This document shows, piece by piece, positions 10,937-42,486 of a stretch of 42,679 nucleotides of DNA. Source of the stretch: Candidatus Zixiibacteriota bacterium. GTDB taxonomy: Bacteria > Zixibacteria > MSB-5A5 > GN15 > FEB-12. Location of the stretch: positions 1 to 42,679 of the forward strand of contig JAWXAN010000050.1 in NCBI GenBank assembly GCA_034439475.1, read 5' to 3'. The stretch's first letter is position 1. Each line of letters opens with the position of its first letter. The notes beneath the pieces are model-generated. The model was given only the letters and a program-made list of their open reading frames with translations, did no database searches and was not told the DNA's origin. A program made the translations under genes and the position numbers.

Positions 10937-13900
10937 ATGTCATCAAGTTCAAGAATATTACCTTACAAAGCAAATTATCCCGATGTCCTTTCCGAATATG
11001 TGGCAGAGATCAAACAGGCGATTCGCCAAGGGAAGCACCACGATCAAAGGAGAGAATTTCTCTTAAACTACTTGCGACTCGCTTATGGAGTTGAAGTCAA
11101 TGAAATTGAAATAGAACAAAAGATTAAGGTGGCCAACGTAAAGGGATTCATTGATGCCCTGTACAAGTATATAATATTTGAAGTCAAGACCGATATCGAC
11201 AGTGAGCGGCCAGCCGCAATGACCGAACTCAGAAAATACTTCGCTGCTCAAAAAACTCCTTCGGAGTACCTTGGGTTGGTGACTGATGGCTTAAGATTCG
11301 AACTATATCAACTCGAAGGCGCGTCTATAGAACAGATATCCAAATTTACAATAGATGAGAATGATGTTCTTGGCTCCTTCAGATATCTTGATAATATTCT
11401 TTTCTCTGCCAAAAAAACTACACCCCGTTCGATTGATATCACTACCCGCTACGGGCCAGACAGCGCAGTTTTTAGAAAATGTAATAATATCTTAACCGAA
11501 CTTCTCGGAAGCGTTAAAACAGTGCCCAGTGTGAAGGTGAAGTTCAGCGAATGGAATTCACTACTTTCGCGTGTATACGGAGAACCTATCGGCGACCAGA
11601 TTCTTTTTGTACGCCACACATATTTGACGATGCTGTCAAGATTACTCGTACTGAATGCATTATTCCCTAAAATCACGATGTCCAAGACTCTATACCGTGG
11701 TTTACTAACCGGACAGTTTTTTGCAAAACATAACCTGCCCAATCTGGCTGAACCGGACTTTTTTAGTTGGGCACTCGGTACTACCGCTGAAGACGATTTC
11801 ATAGGGTTTCTTTCGAGACTGGATACCTACCTAAGACCATATAAATTTGACGATATAGATGAAGATATTCTGAAGGAAATTTATCAAGAACTGGTTGATA
11901 CTACAAGTCGTCATTCGTTAGGTGAGTACTACACCCCAGATTGGATTGCGGATCTTGCCTTGGAATCGATAAAGTATAAATCGGGAACGGTACTGGATCC
12001 CGCATGCGGCTCTGGTTCTTTTCTCTTAGCCACAATTCGCCGACTTAGGAAGCAAGGACTTGCCGGAAGCAAGCTATTGAATAAAGCAATGACAACCGTT
12101 TCAGGAATCGATGTGCATCCTTTGGCAGTCATAATGACCAAGGCAAATCTCTTACTTAGCTTGGCGAAAGAAATAAAAGAAGCAGTTCATGAAGTTTATT
12201 TGCCTGTCTACATGGCAGATACCCTGTTGGTTGCGGAAGACAAGAAGAAGCGCTCGATTGCAATTCAGGCCAGCGCTGAGGAGTCGTTTCACATACCATC
12301 TGAGGCCGCCGAACGCGGCGATGACATTGACCGACTAATTGATAAGTTAGCTTCAGTTTCGCAGATCGCCGTTAAAGATTCCAAAACCATGGCAACAGTA
12401 TGGTCGGCGTTTGAATCTCGCTATCTCAAGGCATCCGATGATCATGAAAAATTTCTCTGGAAGCAAAACTTCAAGCTGTATGTAAAGCTTATCAAACAGA
12501 ATAAGGACACTGTTTGGGCATTCATCCTTAAAAATGCCTGCCGGCCAGCGTACTTGAGACGTCAAAAGGTTGATTACATTCTCGGTAATCCACCGTGGCT
12601 GGCTTATAGATATATCAAGGATAAAGCCTATAAAGCAGTGGTAAAGGATTTGACTCTACATAATGGATTACTTGATAGAACTCAGGTCAAGCTCTTCACT
12701 CAATTGGACACTAGCACACTATTTTTTGTATACTGCCAAAAATACTTTCTCAAAGAGGGCGGAACCATTGGATTTGTACTTCCTAAGACCACGATTCTCC
12801 CCGCGAAACAACATGCTAAGTTTCAAGAACTGGGCTTCTCACAAATTCATGATTTTTCCGGTGTCAGTCCTTTATTCAACGTGCGTTCTGTTCTACTGAT
12901 TTCAAACCCGAAGACAAAAGTGCGCACTAAAATACCGACTACGCTCTATCGGGGCAGACTATCATCCAAAAATTTGAAATGGGAAACGGCCAAGAAGTTT
13001 CTTTCCACCGAAGAAAAAAACACTGATTTCCTGGATTCCAACCAGCAACTATCCCCGTATTTTCATCTTTTCCAACAGGGAGCTACAATCGTGCCTCGGT
13101 CATTTTGGTTTGTTCAACAGGACAAAAATGCCGCCAAACATGAAAAAATACCGCACTTGGAAACATCCGATGAGGCTTTGGATGAAGCCAAGAATCCATG
13201 GAAAATAAAAATCCAAGGTCGGATAGAGAAAGAATTAATTTTTGAAACGATACTTGCTAAAGGCTTGTTACCATTCGGTATTACACGGACTGAATCAATT
13301 TTCCTTCCGATTATCCGAAAGAAAAAATCTTACTCGCTGGCTGATTCGGTAGTCTTGACAGAGAAGGGGTTCGAAAATGCTGCACTCTGGCTGGCTGGAA
13401 CTGAAAAACTGTGGGAAACGCATCGACAGACAAATGACCGTTCCTTGCTACAACGATTGAATTACAACCAAACGCTTATAAGGCAAGACATAACGGCGGA
13501 ACATGTGGTCATATATAATACATCGGGTACAAACCTTGCCTCGGCGCTCTTTCAACGAAGTACCGTTTCGAAAAACACTGGATTGCTGACAAATGGATTC
13601 TTTGCGGATGCAAAGACATATTACTATTATGTCATGACCGAACAAGAAGGTCATTACTTAGTTGCATGTCTAAATTCTGACATTGTAAATTTGGCGATCA
13701 AACAATATCAACCACAGGGACTTTACGGAGAGAGAGACATTCACCGTCGTCCATTTGAGGTTTGCGCTATTCCCAAATTTGACCTTAAGAATCCGGTTCA
13801 TATTCAACTTGCTGAACTTGGCGGGAAATGTAAAGAGGAGCTTGAATCATTGTTACCTCAGTTTGCTGGACGGCTCGGGCAAAAAAGACTCGATGTTCGA

Positions 13901-14029
13901 AAGCTATTTGCTGGCGAGCTTAATAAAATCAACAAGCTTGTTGTCCTATTGCTCGAAGAGTCGGGTCAAGACACCGAGAGTCTAATACCCGAGGCAAATC
14001 GGATTAAGAACGGCGATCTTTTCGAGTAA
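10937..14029 (+). CDS. Type IIG-like restriction-methylation protein (Eco57I/N6-adenine methylase family)
   Basis: The 1030-residue protein joins several parts seen in single-chain type IIG enzymes. An N-terminal nuclease-like motif, Asp73 followed by Glu82-Val83-Lys84 (FEVK), fits a PD-(D/E)xK site. The methylase core has GEYYTPDWIADL, the SAM motif DPACGSGSF at residues 354-362, and the catalytic NPPW at 551-554. The C-terminal third (from about 750) probably recognises the target DNA. No separate S, R or helicase gene is nearby. Codon use looks more A+T-rich than in the flanking core genes, suggesting horizontal transfer. Target sequence and activity cannot be read from the sequence. No clear Shine-Dalgarno precedes the ATG. 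Confidence 0.82.
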   Translation: MSSSSRILPYKANYPDVLSEYVAEIKQAIRQGKHHDQRREFLLNYLRLAYGVEVNEIEIEQKIKVANVKGFIDALYKYIIFEVKTDIDSERPAAMTELRKYFAAQKTPSEYLGLVTDGLRFELYQLEGASIEQISKFTIDENDVLGSFRYLDNILFSAKKTTPRSIDITTRYGPDSAVFRKCNNILTELLGSVKTVPSVKVKFSEWNSLLSRVYGEPIGDQILFVRHTYLTMLSRLLVLNALFPKITMSKTLYRGLLTGQFFAKHNLPNLAEPDFFSWALGTTAEDDFIGFLSRLDTYLRPYKFDDIDEDILKEIYQELVDTTSRHSLGEYYTPDWIADLALESIKYKSGTVLDPACGSGSFLLATIRRLRKQGLAGSKLLNKAMTTVSGIDVHPLAVIMTKANLLLSLAKEIKEAVHEVYLPVYMADTLLVAEDKKKRSIAIQASAEESFHIPSEAAERGDDIDRLIDKLASVSQIAVKDSKTMATVWSAFESRYLKASDDHEKFLWKQNFKLYVKLIKQNKDTVWAFILKNACRPAYLRRQKVDYILGNPPWLAYRYIKDKAYKAVVKDLTLHNGLLDRTQVKLFTQLDTSTLFFVYCQKYFLKEGGTIGFVLPKTTILPAKQHAKFQELGFSQIHDFSGVSPLFNVRSVLLISNPKTKVRTKIPTTLYRGRLSSKNLKWETAKKFLSTEEKNTDFLDSNQQLSPYFHLFQQGATIVPRSFWFVQQDKNAAKHEKIPHLETSDEALDEAKNPWKIKIQGRIEKELIFETILAKGLLPFGITRTESIFLPIIRKKKSYSLADSVVLTEKGFENAALWLAGTEKLWETHRQTNDRSLLQRLNYNQTLIRQDITAEHVVIYNTSGTNLASALFQRSTVSKNTGLLTNGFFADAKTYYYYVMTEQEGHYLVACLNSDIVNLAIKQYQPQGLYGERDIHRRPFEVCAIPKFDLKNPVHIQLAELGGKCKEELESLLPQFAGRLGQKRLDVRKLFAGELNKINKLVVLLLEESGQDTESLIPEANRIKNGDLFE

Positions 14030-20334: not shown

Positions 20335-21084
20335 ATGGGTCTTCGCCGCTTTTTAAGAAAACTACTAAGAACCAAACCAACCGATGGCCTCAAAAGTCTT
20401 CGGCCCGCTGAATCAATCCTCGGATATCATTTTTCCGATCCCCGCCTGCTTATGCTTGGACTTACCCACCGTTCGGTCGTGCGAGTCACCGAAACAGAGG
20501 AAGTTTCAAACGAACGACTGGAATTTTTGGGGGATTCAGTGCTCGGCATGGTTATCGCCGAGATGCTCTATCGCGATTACCCCGAAATGGCCGAAGGTCA
20601 GCTCACAAAATTCAAAGCCATGCTTGTTAACGAAGCTACACTGGCAGGAATGGCCAAAGCGTCCGGTTTAAATCAATTCATCAGGCTTTCGCCCGAAGAA
20701 GATCGTACTGGCGGAAGGGAACGGGCATCGATTATATCTGATTCATTCGAGGCTGTTATCGGCGCGGTCTACCTCGATGGCGGACACCAGGCGGCATCAG
20801 TGGTTATCGACCGCCTTATTTATGCCAACAAGGAAAACATTATCAGTGATTCCTCCCAGAGAAATTATAAAGGGGAACTGCTCGAGATGTCCCAGTCACG
20901 CGGAGAGGGCGCGCCGAGATACGATGTTGTCTCCGAAGAAGGACCCGATCATGAGAAAATCTTCTATGTCGCCGTGACTATTGCCGGAGAACAGATAGGG
21001 GAAGGCTCTGGTCTTTCAAAAAAAGAAGCCGAACAAAAAGCCGCCTCGGCGGCCCTTCAACGATATACCTCGCTCAGCAGCTGA
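20335..21084 (+). CDS. rnc: Ribonuclease III
   Basis: RNase III cuts double-stranded RNA during rRNA and mRNA processing. The 249-residue protein has the signature NERLEFLGD at residues 59-67 and the second acidic cluster DSFEAVIGAVYLDGG. A C-terminal double-stranded-RNA-binding domain follows (from about 175, YKGELLEMSQSRG to KKEAEQKAASAAL). The start lies six bases after fabF. The fabF-rnc pairing is common in bacteria. It is the last gene of this cluster. Confidence 0.95.
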   Translation: MGLRRFLRKLLRTKPTDGLKSLRPAESILGYHFSDPRLLMLGLTHRSVVRVTETEEVSNERLEFLGDSVLGMVIAEMLYRDYPEMAEGQLTKFKAMLVNEATLAGMAKASGLNQFIRLSPEEDRTGGRERASIISDSFEAVIGAVYLDGGHQAASVVIDRLIYANKENIISDSSQRNYKGELLEMSQSRGEGAPRYDVVSEEGPDHEKIFYVAVTIAGEQIGEGSGLSKKEAEQKAASAALQRYTSLSS

Positions 21085-21526
21085 TTCACTTTCAATCTCC
21101 TTCAATATATTTTCATCACCGATTCAGCCTTCGCAATAAGGCGATCAACGATACATGACTGTTGATTTACTCTTCCATATTTCTATTTTCTCATAGGAGC
21201 AATCATCGGTGGGCGCATTATCATGTCGTGATTTTTTTCTTTGTAGACATGAGTGATTGCATGCGTGATGAACAAATGAGATGTTCATCATCGATGTGTA
21301 ATAATGCGCGATGTAATACTGATCGCTCTTCTGATTGTTCAGTTGGTGTAGATTGACTGCAAGAAAATATTTGATGATGTCAACTTTTTTTATTGACATT
21401 TAAATATAATTATCGTTATTAACTGATGAATGTGTAATAGGTCAGGTGATGCAAGTCATCATCGCAAGATGACGATGCGCGGAACTTGACTAACAACGAA
21501 AACGCTTTGCTAAAGGAGCACGATCA
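21085..21526. other. A+T-rich structured intergenic region before the histone-like gene
   Basis: This 440-base stretch holds no credible gene on either strand. It has a perfect 9-bp stem with a 7-base loop (TGATGAACA at 21266-21274 with TGTTCATCA at 21282-21290). A shorter stem (GTCATC 21455-21460 with GATGAC 21468-21473) lies in the probable leader of the next gene. A promoter-like element is at 21393-21421. Repeated GATG/CATC words give it a distinct composition. Confidence 0.5.
21393..21421 (+). promoter_or_regulatory. Probable promoter of the histone-like gene
   Basis: TTGACA at 21393-21398 is followed after 17 bases by TTATTA at 21416-21421, inside very A+T-rich DNA. The same TTGACA-N17-TTATT pattern precedes the atp operon. 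Transcription from here would give a leader of about 100 bases. Confidence 0.5.
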
Positions 21527-21637
21527 ATGCCAGCTGCAAAGAAAGCCGCCAAGAAGTCAACCGCTAAGAAGTCAACCGCTAAGAAGTCGACTGCTAAGAA
21601 GTCGACTGCCAAAAAGGCGACCAAGAAGAGAAAGTAA
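21527..21637 (+). CDS. Histone H1-like lysine/alanine-rich peptide
   Basis: This 36-residue gene encodes MPAAKKAAKK followed by four STAKK units and ATKKRK. Half of its residues are Lys or Arg, and it has no acidic, aromatic or large hydrophobic residue. It resembles the C-terminal tails of eukaryotic H1 and the bacterial Hc1/HctB-like proteins, which bind DNA non-specifically; nucleoid binding is therefore inferred. AAAGGAG nine bases before the ATG, a perfect -35 box and two terminators show that it is a real, probably well-expressed, single-gene unit. The 15-base repeat units use nearly identical codons and could expand or contract in copy number. No paralogue lies nearby. Confidence 0.8.
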   Translation: MPAAKKAAKKSTAKKSTAKKSTAKKSTAKKATKKRK

Positions 21638-21647
21638 CTACCGCTGC

Positions 21648-21669
21648 AAAAACCGTTCAGCGGTTTTTT
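21648..21669 (+). terminator. Intrinsic terminator of the histone-like gene
   Basis: AAAAACCG (21648-21655) pairs with CGGTTTTT (21661-21668) across the loop TTCAG, and the T run continues. It lies ten bases after the stop codon. Confidence 0.75.
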
Positions 21670-21704
21670 CAAAAGAGTTACATCGGTTGTTAACACAATC
21701 GAAC

Positions 21705-21735
21705 ACTGGCCCGCTTCACGCGGGTCAGTTTTTTT
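21705..21735 (+). terminator. Second intrinsic terminator in tandem
   Basis: ACTGGCCCGC pairs with GCGGGTCAGT (10 bp with one G-T pair, loop TTCAC), followed by seven T. It lies 35 bases after the first terminator. The tandem arrangement isolates the histone-like gene from etfB, or could end a short separate RNA. Confidence 0.75.
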
Positions 21736-21875
21736 ATGCCTGAAACCCTCTGAGGCGGCCATTATCACCTCGCGGTTTTCTTGACTTTTCCCCTCTCATA
21801 GCCCATATTCGAGCTCAATAAATGAAGCGTGTTCGTTATAAAAAGATCTGAACTGAAATCCGGAGTTATTACCGA

Positions 21876-22661
21876 ATGAATATCGTCGTCTTAGTCAAAC
21901 AAGTTCCTGAAATAGCCTTAATCAAAGTCGATGAATCAGCCAACCAAGTTCTGCTGCCCCAGGGGCCGGGTGTGGTCAATCCCTTCGATGAATACGCCGT
22001 CGAGGAGGGACTTCGACTTCGGGAGAAGACCAATGGTAAATGCATCGTGATGTCGCTCGGAAGCGAACGAGCCGAATCGGCCCTTCGTGATTGTCTTGCC
22101 CTCGGCGCGGACGACGCCTATTTATTGAACGATGAGCTATTCCTTGGCTCCGATCCACAAGCTGTTGGGAAAATACTTGCCGCAGGACTTAAGAAACTTG
22201 GAAACTTTGACCTTGTGCTGGCCGGCAAACAATCTGTCGATGCTGATTCCTCGCAGGTTCCTTCAGCGGTCGCCGCCGCGCTGGATTTGCCGCAGGCGAT
22301 GTTTGTCAAAAAATTTGAATCGGCAGCCGCGGACAAAGTAACGGTCTATCGAACGACCGAAGACGGCTATGATATTGTTGAGCTTCCCCTGCCGGCAGTA
22401 GTTTCTGTGGTAAAAGAAATCAATGAGCCGCGTTTGCCTTCGTTGAAAGGGAAGATGGCCGCCAAGAAAAAAGAGATTGTTAAATGGTCGGCCGCTGACC
22501 TTGGCTTGACCAAAGACGGCATCGGAGCTAATTCACAGACCAAAACGCTCAAAGTTTCCCCGCCGGCGCCTCGTTCTAAAGGAGAGATGATCGAAGGGGC
22601 TTCGCCTGAGGAAATAGCCGACAAGCTTTTCAATAAGCTGAGGGAGAATCAGGTAATTTAG
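21876..22661 (+). CDS. etfB: Electron transfer flavoprotein beta subunit
   Basis: EtfB pairs with EtfA to shuttle electrons from acyl-CoA and other dehydrogenases, using FAD, with an AMP site in EtfB. The 261-residue protein begins MNIVVLVKQVPE and has NPFDEYAVEEGLRLRE (about residues 35-50). GADDAYLL and the conserved GKQSVDADSSQVPSAVA region (about 117-133) follow, and then the ETF-beta signature-like VKEINEPRLPSLKGKMAAKKK. No etfA gene follows; a cupin gene does. EtfA must be elsewhere in the genome. A 10-bp stem spans the stop codon. Confidence 0.93.
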   Translation: MNIVVLVKQVPEIALIKVDESANQVLLPQGPGVVNPFDEYAVEEGLRLREKTNGKCIVMSLGSERAESALRDCLALGADDAYLLNDELFLGSDPQAVGKILAAGLKKLGNFDLVLAGKQSVDADSSQVPSAVAAALDLPQAMFVKKFESAAADKVTVYRTTEDGYDIVELPLPAVVSVVKEINEPRLPSLKGKMAAKKKEIVKWSAADLGLTKDGIGANSQTKTLKVSPPAPRSKGEMIEGASPEEIADKLFNKLRENQVI

Positions 22662-32739: not shown

Positions 32740-33060
32740 CTAGTAAGTGGCGGATGTCCATTCCAGCACGTGCGGGCTTGAAGTCGTTATGCACCACGAC
32801 TAATTCAGAAATCTTGGATTTCGGCTAGGTGTCGGTCCACCGCGGTTGCCCTTTTCTTGTCTTTCCTGCCCCTGCCCGATGTGGCGGGAAAGCTGGAAAC
32901 CATCTTGATCTTCGTGCAGGCCGTCTCTGGCCTGCACGAAGATCAAGATCACATTGTCCCGACGAATGTCGGGAGTGTGGTACAAGAACTAAGAGAAGAT
33001 GGCCCCCAGCCCTACCAGTTCGCGGTCGTCCGCCAAATGAGGGCGCCCTGACTGAACCGC
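32740..33060. repeat. Composite dispersed hairpin repeat
   Basis: This non-coding block contains a perfect 21-bp stem: 32902-32922 (starts ATCTTGATC) with 32929-32949 (ends CAAGAT), loop GTCTCT. It also has a smaller stem CCCGAC/GTCGGG near 32958 and a stem built from CTTTCCTGCC and GGCGGGAAAG. The GTGCAGGCC core also occurs in the left-end repeat, and the TGTACCACAC edge, in reverse, matches 38180. Open frames here follow the repeat and are not genes. Confidence 0.75.
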
Positions 33061-33101: not shown

Positions 33102-33127
33102 CGATACTCTGCAAATGTCTTAAATAT

Positions 33128-33201
33128 GGCGGTGTAGCTCAGCTGGTTAGAGCAGCGGAATCATAATCCGCGTGTCCGGGGTTCGAGTCCCTGCACCGCT
33201 A
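33128..33201 (+). tRNA. tRNA-Met (anticodon CAT)
   Basis: The 74-base cloverleaf has acceptor arms GGCGGTG and CACCGCT (closed by one G-U pair at the end), D-arm GCTC/GAGC with GGTTA, and anticodon stem GCGGA/TCCGC. The loop is ATCATAA, giving anticodon CAT, and the T-arm loop is GTTCGAGTC. It lacks the features of initiator tRNA and resembles elongator Met tRNA. A tRNA-Ile with modified CAU cannot be fully excluded. The CCA end is not encoded. Confidence 0.95.
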
Positions 33202-33420
33202 TTTGTTTTAAGTAGTCCGCCTTATTTCCTGAGATGGGTACCTCGCCGTGGCGGCCCGCAATGAAGGGATGAAATGGGCAACCACTGGGGGTTGCCCCTA
33301 CAGCAGAACCAATCCCAACTAAACAATGCATATTATTCCGTAGGGGCAGGCCCCTGTGCCTGCCCTCCATGTAGTTGATTCAATGTGCTGGTGTGCGTCC
33401 CTCGTGCACTAGCTTATTCG
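33202..33420. repeat. Fragments of dispersed repeats after the tRNA
   Basis: There is no gene here. GGGCAACC near 33278 is repeated in inverse as GGTTGCCC. GTAGGGGCAGGCCCCTGTGCCTGCCC near 33340 is a hairpin with GGCAGGC/GCCTGCC arms. GGTGTGCGTCCCTCGTG near 33393 is like the inverse of the piece near 3380 between atpH and atpA. Confidence 0.55.
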
Positions 33421-36308: not shown

Positions 36309-36614
36309 CTAATTTTTCAATCTATTCCGATTGCGGCCATACAGATAAATCGCGCTCAATCCACTTCCCAATAAAATCAAGGTAGCCGGCTCGGGTACCC
36401 CTGAAACCGGTTCTCCGGGCGTTTCATAAGGCGGATTTGTGCTGCCCTTAGGAAGGCTTTCACTTCCGTTTGAGGTCTTCGTCGTGTCCACAACATTACT
36501 CGGGTTGCCGACACCGTATACATCATCCCATGTGCTAGTCATAGTCAGGACAAAAACAACGAGGGCTACCAGCCAATAAATTTGAATCCTATTCTGACGT
36601 TTGTACGTGACCAT
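36309..36614 (-). CDS. PEP-CTERM sorting-domain protein
   Basis: The 101-residue precursor has an N-terminal signal or membrane segment (about 12-30, YWLVALVVFVLTMT). A short Ser/Thr/Pro/Asn-rich region follows, and then the PEP-CTERM tail: VPEPATLILLGSGLSAIYLY and the basic end GRNRNRLKN. PEP-CTERM proteins are cut and sorted by exosortase in bacteria that make exopolysaccharide. No exosortase is in the window. AAAGGAAG precedes the ATG. The mature part is only about 45 residues, so it may be a small surface peptide. Confidence 0.8.
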   Translation of the reverse strand: MVTYKRQNRIQIYWLVALVVFVLTMTSTWDDVYGVGNPSNVVDTTKTSNGSESLPKGSTNPPYETPGEPVSGVPEPATLILLGSGLSAIYLYGRNRNRLKN

Positions 36615-38685: not shown

Positions 38686-40878
38686 TCAATAGCACGGGGC
38701 TGAGGCGCTGCCAAAGAGATAATTCATATAATAGACAGCGTCGCTCAGATTAACTATTCCATCGCAATTGCAATCGGCTCTCAAAGCCCCGCCCACTGGC
38801 GCGGCGCCGCCCGAAGTCAGATAGCTCATCAGTAATAGCAGATCGCCGATATCGGCCGTGCCATCATTATCGAGGTCTCCTTTGGCGAATGCGCCAACGC
38901 AGGTATAGCGAAGCAAAAGAGTGTGTGTTCCGCGATAATTACTTAAATCTTTTCCTGAGGCTCTGAAAAAGTAAAGTCCGTTTTCGGTCAGACCAGTTGG
39001 TTCATAACTCACCGACCAACCATCGCTTCCAGTTAGGTCGGCCTTGGTGAAGGTACGAGTGATGCTCCAGTTCGGGGCATGGACTGATATCATGATGTCG
39101 ATTCTATGCCAGTTGCTGTTGAAATATATTTCGCTGAATGAGCCGGAATTTCTGACAGGCAATTCCTCGATTGCGCCAGTGAGCGGCGATGCAATATACA
39201 CTTTATAGCTTCCGTCGGGCTGTTTCCATCCGTTAAAACCATCGACCGCCAGCCAGAAACCTTTATTGCCGCTCAGACCGATTATCACAGCGCGCTCTTC
39301 TTCTTCGACCCAGGTTCGAATGTCAAAATAGCCAGGCGCGCGTTTGTAGTCGACTTTGAGCTGGTTCCCTTTGGAGAAGAGATATGAACCCAAGCCGGCA
39401 TAAAATTTTTCGTCGTAGGTGCCGCGTTTGGCGCGTGTGGCGAAGGATACAGCCAACGCTTCAGCCAGAGCGGTCATTGTCATTGGTGTTGCGCCTTGAG
39501 TGGCAACGGCGGTGTAGCCTCGCCCCGCCCAAAGTTTGAGGGCCATAGCGGCTGATGCCGGGCCGCTGTAAAAGTCGCCGAATTCGCCATTGGAAACGAA
39601 ATTGCCATCGTTGGGATTGCCGTTGTTGTCCCCGGCGCTGAACTGATTCATGAGGGTCAGACCGGCATGATAGGTATTCGCGGCGGGTTTGCGATAGAGT
39701 TCGATGAATGACATGTTCTCATCGTTGCAGTTCATCAGAATATTTAAGGGGGAGCAAAAGTCTTCGGCGTTGTCGGGCGATGTTATCCTCGGTGTGGGCG
39801 GAGTCGGATCGAGGGTGATAACGGCGGTGGAGAAAGAACTTCGTCCGAGGGTGTCATTCGATGTCGCGCGGAGGGTATACGAACCTTCGGCGAGACTTGA
39901 GGTGTTCCAAATTACGCTGAATCCGTTTCCGGAGACAGCCGACGCGGTCCCACTTCGTAGCGGCGATGAGCCATCGTAATCGCGTCCGATCTCGACATGG
40001 GGAAGGCCATTGAACGAATAAGAAAATGAAATGTAATCGATGATTGTCGAGCCGGAGCTGTCTGCGGCCCAGAGTTCAGTTTCGCCGAGAACAAGGGCGC
40101 TGGTTGAAGGGGACAAGAGGATAGCCTGCGGATTGGGCTGGACTGTTCCGCCTCCGCCGTTACCGCCCGGCACGCCTGCGGCTTCCATTGCAAGGTTGCC
40201 GGGAAAGTTGTAGTACTCGTTGTTGACCAAATCTATCCAGCCAATATTTTCGTCCCAGATGTTGAACGAGGTGCATTCGGCGGGTGTGCTGTCGGCAAGG
40301 AGGGCGGCATTAACAGTGGCGCTGATGGTGTTGGAAATAAAAAAGCCGGCAAAGAATGGGCCATTGACTACCACTGGGCTGTCGAGAGGAATCCAGATGT
40401 TGAATATTCCGCCTCCGGCGGGGATATTGAGACTCCAGTCTTTTGAAATAGCGATAGGCACGCCAGGAATTGGACACCCGGGATAGGATGTATCATCGAC
40501 AAGCTCCACATCGACGGATACCACAAGCTGAGTTGCGGCATCAAATGACATGGGGAGATTAATTTCGGTAACGGTAAAGGGATATGGATTTGGACAGGTC
40601 GCTGAAGGGTCCATATATGATTTGTAGAGTTCGGCCCCCGCAAGCCAGCCTTCGATGAGGTATATGATCTCGCTGTTGGGAGACACAGAACAGGTGTCGG
40701 CTGTGGCAAGCGACGGGCTGAGACGGATGTCTGTTATCAGTGGATTTTCAACTTTACGAATACGAGGCGATGACTTGTCAATGGCATTGGTCGTTGCCGG
40801 GAGTGCAAGCAGAGTGGCAAAAACCATAAGCAATTTGAATGATCCTCCACAGGTGGGCAGGCACGGCAATCTTCTCAT
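38686..40878 (-). CDS. Large exported dockerin protein with inactive-looking C39-like domain
   Basis: The 730-residue protein starts with a signal peptide (to about residue 32, ALPATTNA). A beta-rich N-terminal domain is followed by a linker GGNGGGG and an immunoglobulin-like region (about 250-360). A C39-peptidase-like domain lies at about 400-580. There FYSGPASAAM has Ser438 where active C39 enzymes have Cys, and GFWLAVDGF has Phe541 where they have His, so it probably no longer cleaves. The C-terminus has two dockerin units (GDLDNDGTADIGDLLLLMSY; CNCDGIVNLSDAVYYMNYLF). The first codons come from a dispersed repeat, so the true start may be further in (near residue 16-18). Confidence 0.7.
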   Translation of the reverse strand: MRRLPCLPTCGGSFKLLMVFATLLALPATTNAIDKSSPRIRKVENPLITDIRLSPSLATADTCSVSPNSEIIYLIEGWLAGAELYKSYMDPSATCPNPYPFTVTEINLPMSFDAATQLVVSVDVELVDDTSYPGCPIPGVPIAISKDWSLNIPAGGGIFNIWIPLDSPVVVNGPFFAGFFISNTISATVNAALLADSTPAECTSFNIWDENIGWIDLVNNEYYNFPGNLAMEAAGVPGGNGGGGTVQPNPQAILLSPSTSALVLGETELWAADSSGSTIIDYISFSYSFNGLPHVEIGRDYDGSSPLRSGTASAVSGNGFSVIWNTSSLAEGSYTLRATSNDTLGRSSFSTAVITLDPTPPTPRITSPDNAEDFCSPLNILMNCNDENMSFIELYRKPAANTYHAGLTLMNQFSAGDNNGNPNDGNFVSNGEFGDFYSGPASAAMALKLWAGRGYTAVATQGATPMTMTALAEALAVSFATRAKRGTYDEKFYAGLGSYLFSKGNQLKVDYKRAPGYFDIRTWVEEEERAVIIGLSGNKGFWLAVDGFNGWKQPDGSYKVYIASPLTGAIEELPVRNSGSFSEIYFNSNWHRIDIMISVHAPNWSITRTFTKADLTGSDGWSVSYEPTGLTENGLYFFRASGKDLSNYRGTHTLLLRYTCVGAFAKGDLDNDGTADIGDLLLLMSYLTSGGAAPVGGALRADCNCDGIVNLSDAVYYMNYLFGSASAPCY

Positions 40879-41058: not shown

Positions 41059-42486
41059 GGGACTGTTGCAAAAGCCCTGTTTAGGCGAGTGAGGGATGTA
41101 TCGTTCGTTTGGACTGTTGATCTATCGATACCGTTCCTGGGAACGTTTGTCTTGAGCCCAGATTCTGTCTCAGAGCATTTATTATCCTCTGAATTGCGTA
41201 CAAAGCCGCATAGGGACACTGACCATGGGCAATTACCCGTTTGAAGTTCATAACCGCAGCAATCAGCAGACACTGCAGACGCATCTTGGACAGACCACGC
41301 CGCCAGGCACGCCGCAATCCATGTCGCTCTTTAGCCTCAGCAAAGATTCCTTCTATTACCGGAGCACGACGTCGATACAAACTGCGAAAGCTCTCGCTCA
41401 GGCTATCGGCCCATAAACGAACCAAAGCCCCATGATGAACACCGGCATTGAGACAGCGCTGAGGCGCCACGGTACACTGAGCTTTCAGGTCACAGGGACG
41501 GCAGGCATGTCTCGACGCTCGATACTTCCGTCGCTCTCGACGACCGCTAAAGGAACCGACACAGCGTAAACGTTGACCGGCCGGACAGATAAATTCATTG
41601 ACCTCTTCATCATAGCTAAACTGCTCAATGCCAAAATACTGTTCGCTCATAGCGCTCTTGGGCTTCCGCGGAGGACGAACCAGACGTATCCCGCGCGCTT
41701 CACAGCCAGCTTGATTGGACGCACTGGCATAAGCCGAATCCGCGCACAGAACCTCTGGTGTCCGAGCCAGACGATCCCGTGCCTGGTCAACGACGCCCAG
41801 CATACTCTCTTCCTCACTGTGATTCGCTGCCGTCACCGTGACAGCCACCACCACCCGCGAGGTATCATCGACCACCGTATGCTGCTTGTAGCCCGGCTGC
41901 TTCGTACCATCTCCAAATCGACCAAAACGGGCATCCCCATCGGGACTGTCGACTTTGTTTACTTTCTGCTTGTCTAAATCGGCCCGCACTGTCGTCGCAT
42001 CTACATGCAGGACTTTCCCCTCGATCAACCCGCTTGTCTGACATTGGGCAATACTGCAAGAGAATACATTATTGAAAACCTCGTCGCCCATGCGGTCAAA
42101 GGCTCGGGACACTGTCGAATGATCCGGCAGCTCCTCGTCAAGTTCATAGCCGATAAACCAGCGGTAGGCCAGGTTCACCTGAACCTGACGCATGAGCTCA
42201 CGAACATGGCTGATCCCCTCTACGGCTTGAATCACGAACAGGCGAATGATCACCTCGGGATCAACCGATGGCCGACCGTTATCCTGGCAGTAGGAGGAGC
42301 GTACCGTTTCATGAACGAAGCTGACATCCAATACGCCATGTAAGCGACGCAGGCGATGATCTACAGGGACAAATGCTTCCAAAGGAGGAAGAATAATCAT
42401 CCGTTGTTGTATCTGTTTTCGTTTTGTTTGCATGACTATAAACAAATCATTTACCAAATAAAATCAAGAACTTTTGCAACAGTCCC
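41059..42486 (-). mobile_element. IS1182-like insertion sequence
   Basis: A 1428-bp element bounded by perfect 16-bp inverted ends: GGGACTGTTGCAAAAG at 41059-41074 and its complement at 42471-42486. It holds one transposase gene filling almost its whole length. It interrupts a dispersed repeat (TCACCCC... and ...CGGGAATCCAGGG). No clear target duplication is seen at the edges. It appears intact and may be active. Confidence 0.88.
41081..42433 (-). CDS. IS1182-family DDE transposase
   Basis: The 450-residue transposase has the N-terminal DUF772-type region (VDHRLRRLHGVL; DNGRPSVDPEVIIRLFVIQA; LPDHSTVSRAFDR) and a DDE catalytic set. The acidic residues are Asp145 in HVDATTVRAD, Asp232 in CADSAYAS, and Glu361 in VIEGIFAEAKERHGLRRA. 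A cysteine-bearing insert (CPAGQRL; CRPCDLKAQC) between the last two is usual for IS1182. I used ATG 42433; the frame can begin at TTG 42457 but neither has a clear ribosome binding site. The frame is unbroken, so the protein may be active. Confidence 0.9.
   Translation of the reverse strand: MQTKRKQIQQRMIILPPLEAFVPVDHRLRRLHGVLDVSFVHETVRSSYCQDNGRPSVDPEVIIRLFVIQAVEGISHVRELMRQVQVNLAYRWFIGYELDEELPDHSTVSRAFDRMGDEVFNNVFSCSIAQCQTSGLIEGKVLHVDATTVRADLDKQKVNKVDSPDGDARFGRFGDGTKQPGYKQHTVVDDTSRVVVAVTVTAANHSEEESMLGVVDQARDRLARTPEVLCADSAYASASNQAGCEARGIRLVRPPRKPKSAMSEQYFGIEQFSYDEEVNEFICPAGQRLRCVGSFSGRRERRKYRASRHACRPCDLKAQCTVAPQRCLNAGVHHGALVRLWADSLSESFRSLYRRRAPVIEGIFAEAKERHGLRRAWRRGLSKMRLQCLLIAAVMNFKRVIAHGQCPYAALYAIQRIINALRQNLGSRQTFPGTVSIDQQSKRTIHPSLA

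Follow-up and report, generated by a model that had tools for sequence, protein, structure and literature searches.

The window analysed here, a 42,679-nucleotide stretch of a Candidatus Zixiibacteriota genome, carries between the genes for RNase III (rnc) and electron transfer flavoprotein beta (etfB) a very short open reading frame on the same strand, which is listed with its putative signals in the table below. Its translation, MPAAKKAAKKSTAKKSTAKKSTAKKSTAKKATKKRK, is the 36-residue peptide with four STAKK units that the initial annotation had described. The peptide contains 15 lysines and one arginine and no aspartate or glutamate, giving a net charge of +16, and, being lysine-rich, of low complexity and devoid of acidic residues, it belongs on composition to the H1-CTD-like class. 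A chance reading frame is ruled out by two observations. None of 1000 shuffles of the rnc–etfB gap yielded an ORF of at least 30 aa at the charge density of the peptide (0.44 charges per residue, versus 0.31 in the best intergenic shuffle), and the four sites that vary among the STAKK units are all synonymous, clustering at third codon positions (P about 0.004 for position alone). The 36-aa ORF is a genuine gene. The exclusively synonymous differences between the repeats are modest but direct evidence for purifying selection within them, acting to maintain the peptide and not only the DNA. A 92-aa ORF on the minus strand over the same bases mirrors the STAKK repeats, and nothing supports it.

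Features of the rnc–etfB locus of the window (positions are those of the window)
Feature	Position	Strand	Basis
rnc (RNase III), adjacent upstream gene, used as synteny anchor	20335-21084	+	ORF list; matched in 59/61 relatives
-35 box TTGACA behind T-tract (TTTTTTTATTGACA)	21393-21398	+	direct sequence
Weak -10, TTATTA / TATTAA, spacer 17-18	21416-21422	+	resembles GTTATTG / TTATCA in relatives
Putative 5'UTR, ~98 nt	21429-21526	+	start site inferred
RBS AAAGGAG, 8 nt before ATG	21512-21518	+	direct sequence
36-aa lysine-rich peptide, MPAAKKAAKK(STAKK)4ATKKRK, domain-less H1-like gene	21527-21637	+	direct sequence and ORF list
Four tandem 15-bp STAKK units	21557-21616	+	units vary at four third codon positions, always synonymously
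Terminator 1, ACCGCTG...CAGCGGT followed by T run	21640-21669	+	fold -9.9 kcal/mol, z -2.6
Terminator 2, ACTGGCCCGCttcacGCGGGTCAGT followed by T run	21705-21736	+	terminator scan; fold z -5.1
etfB (electron transfer flavoprotein beta), adjacent downstream gene, used as synteny anchor	21876-22661	+	ORF list

The genome (G000) is a 2.66 Mb assembly that is 98.7% complete and, like the others in the comparison, was available as a metagenome-assembled sequence without reads. Collapse of the repeats during assembly is unlikely, because the array of about 60–75 bp has internal synonymous differences and is shorter than usual reads. Elsewhere in the window are a 1030-aa MmeI/Eco57I-like type IIG restriction-methylase (10937–14029, +), a tRNA-Met gene (33127–33202) flanked by a perfect 21-bp and an imperfect 33-bp inverted repeat (32902–32949 and 33276–33365), a PEP-CTERM sorting-signal protein near a DUF7451 and dockerin type I protein (36309–36614 and 38686–40878, both −) and, at the contig edge, a DDE transposase with a DUF772 domain (41081–42457, −).

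The transcription signals of the peptide gene can be followed across its relatives. The TTGACA box lies at −134 relative to the ATG, within the distance of some 110–165 nt that characterizes the T-tract and TTGACA box of the family, and a TTGAC box at −165 to −75, usually behind a T-tract, is present at 30 of the 31 gene-bearing loci, including those of the window and of G016, versus a mean of 2.8 and a maximum of 8 in shuffled loci. The sole TATAAT is 6 nt downstream of TTGACA, too close for pairing, and the −10 element must therefore be the poor TTATTA or TATTAA. To call the promoter near-consensus, as had been done initially, was thus generous: the promoter assignment itself is right, as the −35 hexamer is perfect and conserved at the same position in relatives, but the −10 is weak, and a consensus promoter scan of the window did not list the site at 21393. 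The strong ribosome binding site and the tandem terminators were as originally reported, the loop of terminator 1 exceeding the length allowed by the terminator scan, and both the ribosome binding site and the downstream hairpins recur in the loci of relatives. A conserved promoter box, its own ribosome binding site and its own terminators suggest that the gene is a separate transcription unit, which is presumably transcribed and translated. The proposal of an independently controlled, small H1-like basic peptide is supported by the promoter box, the ribosome binding site and the conservation of the locus across the family.

The long structured leader that had also been proposed did not withstand scrutiny. 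The likely 5'UTR is about 100 nt (77–127 nt in relatives when the same boundary rule is applied), its fold, calculated for some 98 nt plus the start, is unremarkable (z −1.5), RNAalifold found no conserved structure in 10 orthologous UTRs, and an Rfam search of the leader returned no match. The 442-nt intergenic stretch as a whole does fold better than shuffles (z −2.6), but the greater part of it lies upstream of the promoter. A dispersed repeat in the leader is excluded, since the genome contains positions 21100–21470 only once. In the part that precedes the peptide promoter there is a branched stem-loop region (21200–21312), closed by GCGCATTAT/ATAATGCGC, which is single copy, has no Rfam match and could be the 3' end of a fab–rnc transcript or a small RNA.

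The genomes searched included none from the same genus, the nearest relatives being members of the same family; the named matches to the window RNase III are MAGs of Zixibacteria or candidate division GN15. In most relatives etfB is found downstream of rnc. As the coding sequences are too simple for meaningful alignment, orthology was tested on their surroundings. In 28 of the 51 same-family genomes the rnc–etfB gap encodes, on the same strand, a Lys/Arg-rich protein of 95–227 aa with a central domain, and a further copy is cut by a contig end; L011, L019 and L023, whose sequences contain the domain, are counted among these loci. Domain-less lysine-rich products occur at this position in two genomes only, the window genome (36 aa) and G016 (L010, 144 aa). 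The locus holds nothing in 20 of the 51, a few of which have contig ends nearby or an etfB that is not adjacent to rnc.

The peptide gene, far from being isolated as first described, therefore lies at a conserved syntenic locus, as a reduced form of the 95–227-aa protein. It occupies the position by which the family was recognized, in the rnc–etfB gap and in the same orientation, and has in common with the rnc-linked proteins the promoter box, the ribosome binding site and the downstream terminators; both products are lysine-rich and end in KKRK/KKRR-type residues. The peptide differs, however, in its length and in lacking the central helix-turn-helix, and it starts with MPAAKK (MAVARK in G016), whereas all 16 aligned domain-bearing copies start with MRK. 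Because of this different start the coding sequence cannot be aligned as orthologous, and the proposed orthology to the domain-bearing copies rests on position and promoter. A lack of frame conservation in relatives was among the findings that, according to the initial annotation, would count against the gene, and it applies only in part: the exact 36-aa frame was not found elsewhere among them, but the locus, the promoter and a lysine-rich product are conserved. The window gene is a domain-less derivative of the rnc-linked H1-like family and not a full member; the family itself was defined in this analysis, and no name for it was found in the libraries searched.

In the domain-bearing proteins disordered Lys/Arg-rich tails enclose a central block, some 50 residues long, in which a W, a Y and an R are invariant. 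Searched against the PDB, the profile of this block hits DNAJC1 in its SANT domain (E 2.9e-4) and, with E 0.016, GcrA, and the predicted structure of one relative has a three-helix core (pLDDT ~92) and low-confidence tails. A fold search with this model yielded nothing at E 0.001 or better, its hits being weak ones to helix-turn-helix, homeodomain and Myb structures, and 'SANT-like' thus relies on the sequence profile and the three-helix prediction. Pfam returned no confident family for the block, and the protein combining helix-turn-helix and lysine-rich tail reached the cut-off of no curated Pfam family. The block is best described as a putative Myb/SANT- or GcrA-like helix-turn-helix. A six-frame profile search of the window genome located the domain on contig C65 only, with no remnant, frameshifted or otherwise, between rnc and etfB. 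The C65 paralog (L033:347-784, −) is an Arg/Ser/Thr-rich protein of 145 aa that keeps the SANT/GcrA-like domain; its counterpart in other genomes, a second copy in which the domain has diverged further, is nearly universal in the family. Outside the family, the domain is also encoded at other loci in the order and class. On contig C61 (L002:1183-1617, −) the window genome further encodes a 144-aa protein with an H1-like lysine-rich N-terminal tail and a SWIB domain (Pfam SWIB, E 9.7e-30); several H1-tailed proteins therefore coexist in this organism.

In an RNase III tree that included 20 outgroup sequences, G016 is placed as the sister of the window genome (99/91), so that one loss of the domain explains both, and their domain-less state is likely shared and of single origin. 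The outgroup genomes examined have no such gene between rnc and etfB, where the usual gap is 67–228 bp; in one of them the gap is 1,079 bp and contains no lysine-rich ORF. Because the domain occurs elsewhere in the order and class and these outgroup loci lack the gene, the domain-bearing protein is probably older than the rnc–etfB locus. Domain loss is the more economical, and hence the favoured, direction, though the branching at the base of the family is not settled. It could be argued that the peptide arose independently, from the basic N-terminal tail of a different H1-tailed protein, for instance the one with the SWIB domain, and then came under the control of the old promoter. That tail is the second-best match to the peptide within its own genome (73% identity over 33 residues), and the SWIB protein has a similar MxxAKK start. 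Convergence is easy for low-complexity sequences, however, and the match has an E value of 0.015; moreover, the promoter is that of the family, and at this locus G016 likewise carries a domain-less form of its own. We consider such an origin very improbable.

The main rival to a functional peptide is the decay of a dispensable gene, in which an ancestral gene, deprived of the folded domain and of the greater part of the tail, would encode a product without present function. The locus is dispensable in that it has become empty on many occasions within the family (20 of 51 genomes), and such repeated complete loss, the extreme shortness of the peptide, the disappearance of the conserved MRK start and the retention of the nearly universal paralog are all consistent with decay. 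Against this, the promoter box, ribosome binding site, start, stop and two terminators are all intact, the changes in the STAKK repeats are synonymous only, and the sister genome G016 keeps an intact 144-aa domain-less form. Decay is thus judged unlikely, though less so than an independent origin, and the peptide gene is probably functional, as the shortened form of an H1-like nucleoid-protein gene that is specific to the family, its product acting as an H1-type tail.

Similar to the window peptide, chlamydial Hc2 and Bordetella BpH1 (Pfam HC2, PF07382) have consecutive lysine-rich pentamers, but Hc2 has 165–237 aa, and the peptide scores 14.9 bits (E 0.028) against this model, below its gathering cut-off of 40. 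It is likewise below the curated cut-offs of the NCBIfam models for histone H1-like DNA-binding protein (NF038053; 11.9 bits, cut-off 80) and the Rv3852 family (NF050153; 12.3 bits, cut-off 100). The likeness to AlgP and PhaF of Pseudomonas, whose DNA-binding H1-like tails are disordered tandem repeats, is that of a disordered repeat tail; AlgP, however, has an N-terminal helical domain and KPAA repeats, whereas the peptide is composed of STAKK units with one proline. The Coxiella proteins Hq1 and ScvA resemble the peptide, as far as their description goes, in being very small and basic, ScvA having a length of about 30 aa. Both are DNA-binding proteins of the small cell variant, which has a condensed nucleoid (PMC4766238). 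The C-terminal tails of eukaryotic linker histone H1 and mycobacterial MDP1/HupB share with the peptide a composition-driven polycationic disorder, but they are attached to a folded DNA-binding domain whereas the window tail stands alone. A literature search on Zixibacteria and histones found nothing relevant.

The ancestral product would have comprised a basic tail, the Myb/SANT- or GcrA-like helix-turn-helix and a second basic tail. Loss of the folded domain in an ancestor that the window genome shares with G016 would eventually have left, in the window, just the 36-residue polycation of STAKK units. Such a peptide would most likely act like the C-terminal tail of linker histone H1, remaining unfolded and being held to DNA by charge, so that it would neutralise phosphates and aid compaction without sequence recognition, while any site- or structure-specific work may be taken over by the C65 domain paralog. 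DNA binding by the peptide is suggested by analogy: in other bacteria, DNA is a ligand of both H1-like tails and KPAA peptides (PMC9239181). The tails of AlgP and of Hc2 (PMC2848022) serve as precedents for this mode of action, Hq1 and ScvA as precedents for the very small size. RNA or polyphosphate may be further partners. It could also be proposed that the main target is one of these polyanions rather than DNA, since AlgP, with its repetitive lysine-rich tail, associates with polyphosphate granules and sets their spacing (PMC9239181), and composition alone cannot discriminate. The helix-turn-helix of the relatives, however, is of a DNA-binding type, which points to DNA for the family, and proximity to rnc gives no link to RNA because the gene seems to be served by a promoter and terminators of its own. 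A main target other than DNA is therefore rather improbable.

Even with DNA as the preferred target, it is a tentative and on balance doubtful proposition that a free 36-residue disordered tail without a folded domain suffices for nucleoid compaction, with the number of units as a tunable parameter. Function is retained by short sub-segments of the H1 tail, as discussed in PMC5974015, but either half of mycobacterial MDP1 by itself has limited DNA affinity (PMC5974015), and by the same token the free tail may bind DNA weakly. Tuning by repeat number, which the initial annotation had put forward, is not new in kind: in Hc2 and BpH1 the number of lysine-rich pentamers is already known to vary between strains (PMC2848022), and in AlgP/PhaF the repeat number differs between isolates (PMC9239181).

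H1-like basic proteins are scattered among bacteria, and the question they raise is how far their action depends on a folded domain. What is new here is a locus-defined family in Zixibacteria, together with a natural reduction series that descends to a 36-residue tail. The case also illustrates how synteny and promoter conservation can serve to validate a gene of 36 aa. At a single promoter-defined locus the series runs from a helix-turn-helix with long tails, through the long tail of G016 and the 36-residue tail of the window, to complete loss, and it makes the question of whether a tail can act alone approachable with synthetic peptides.
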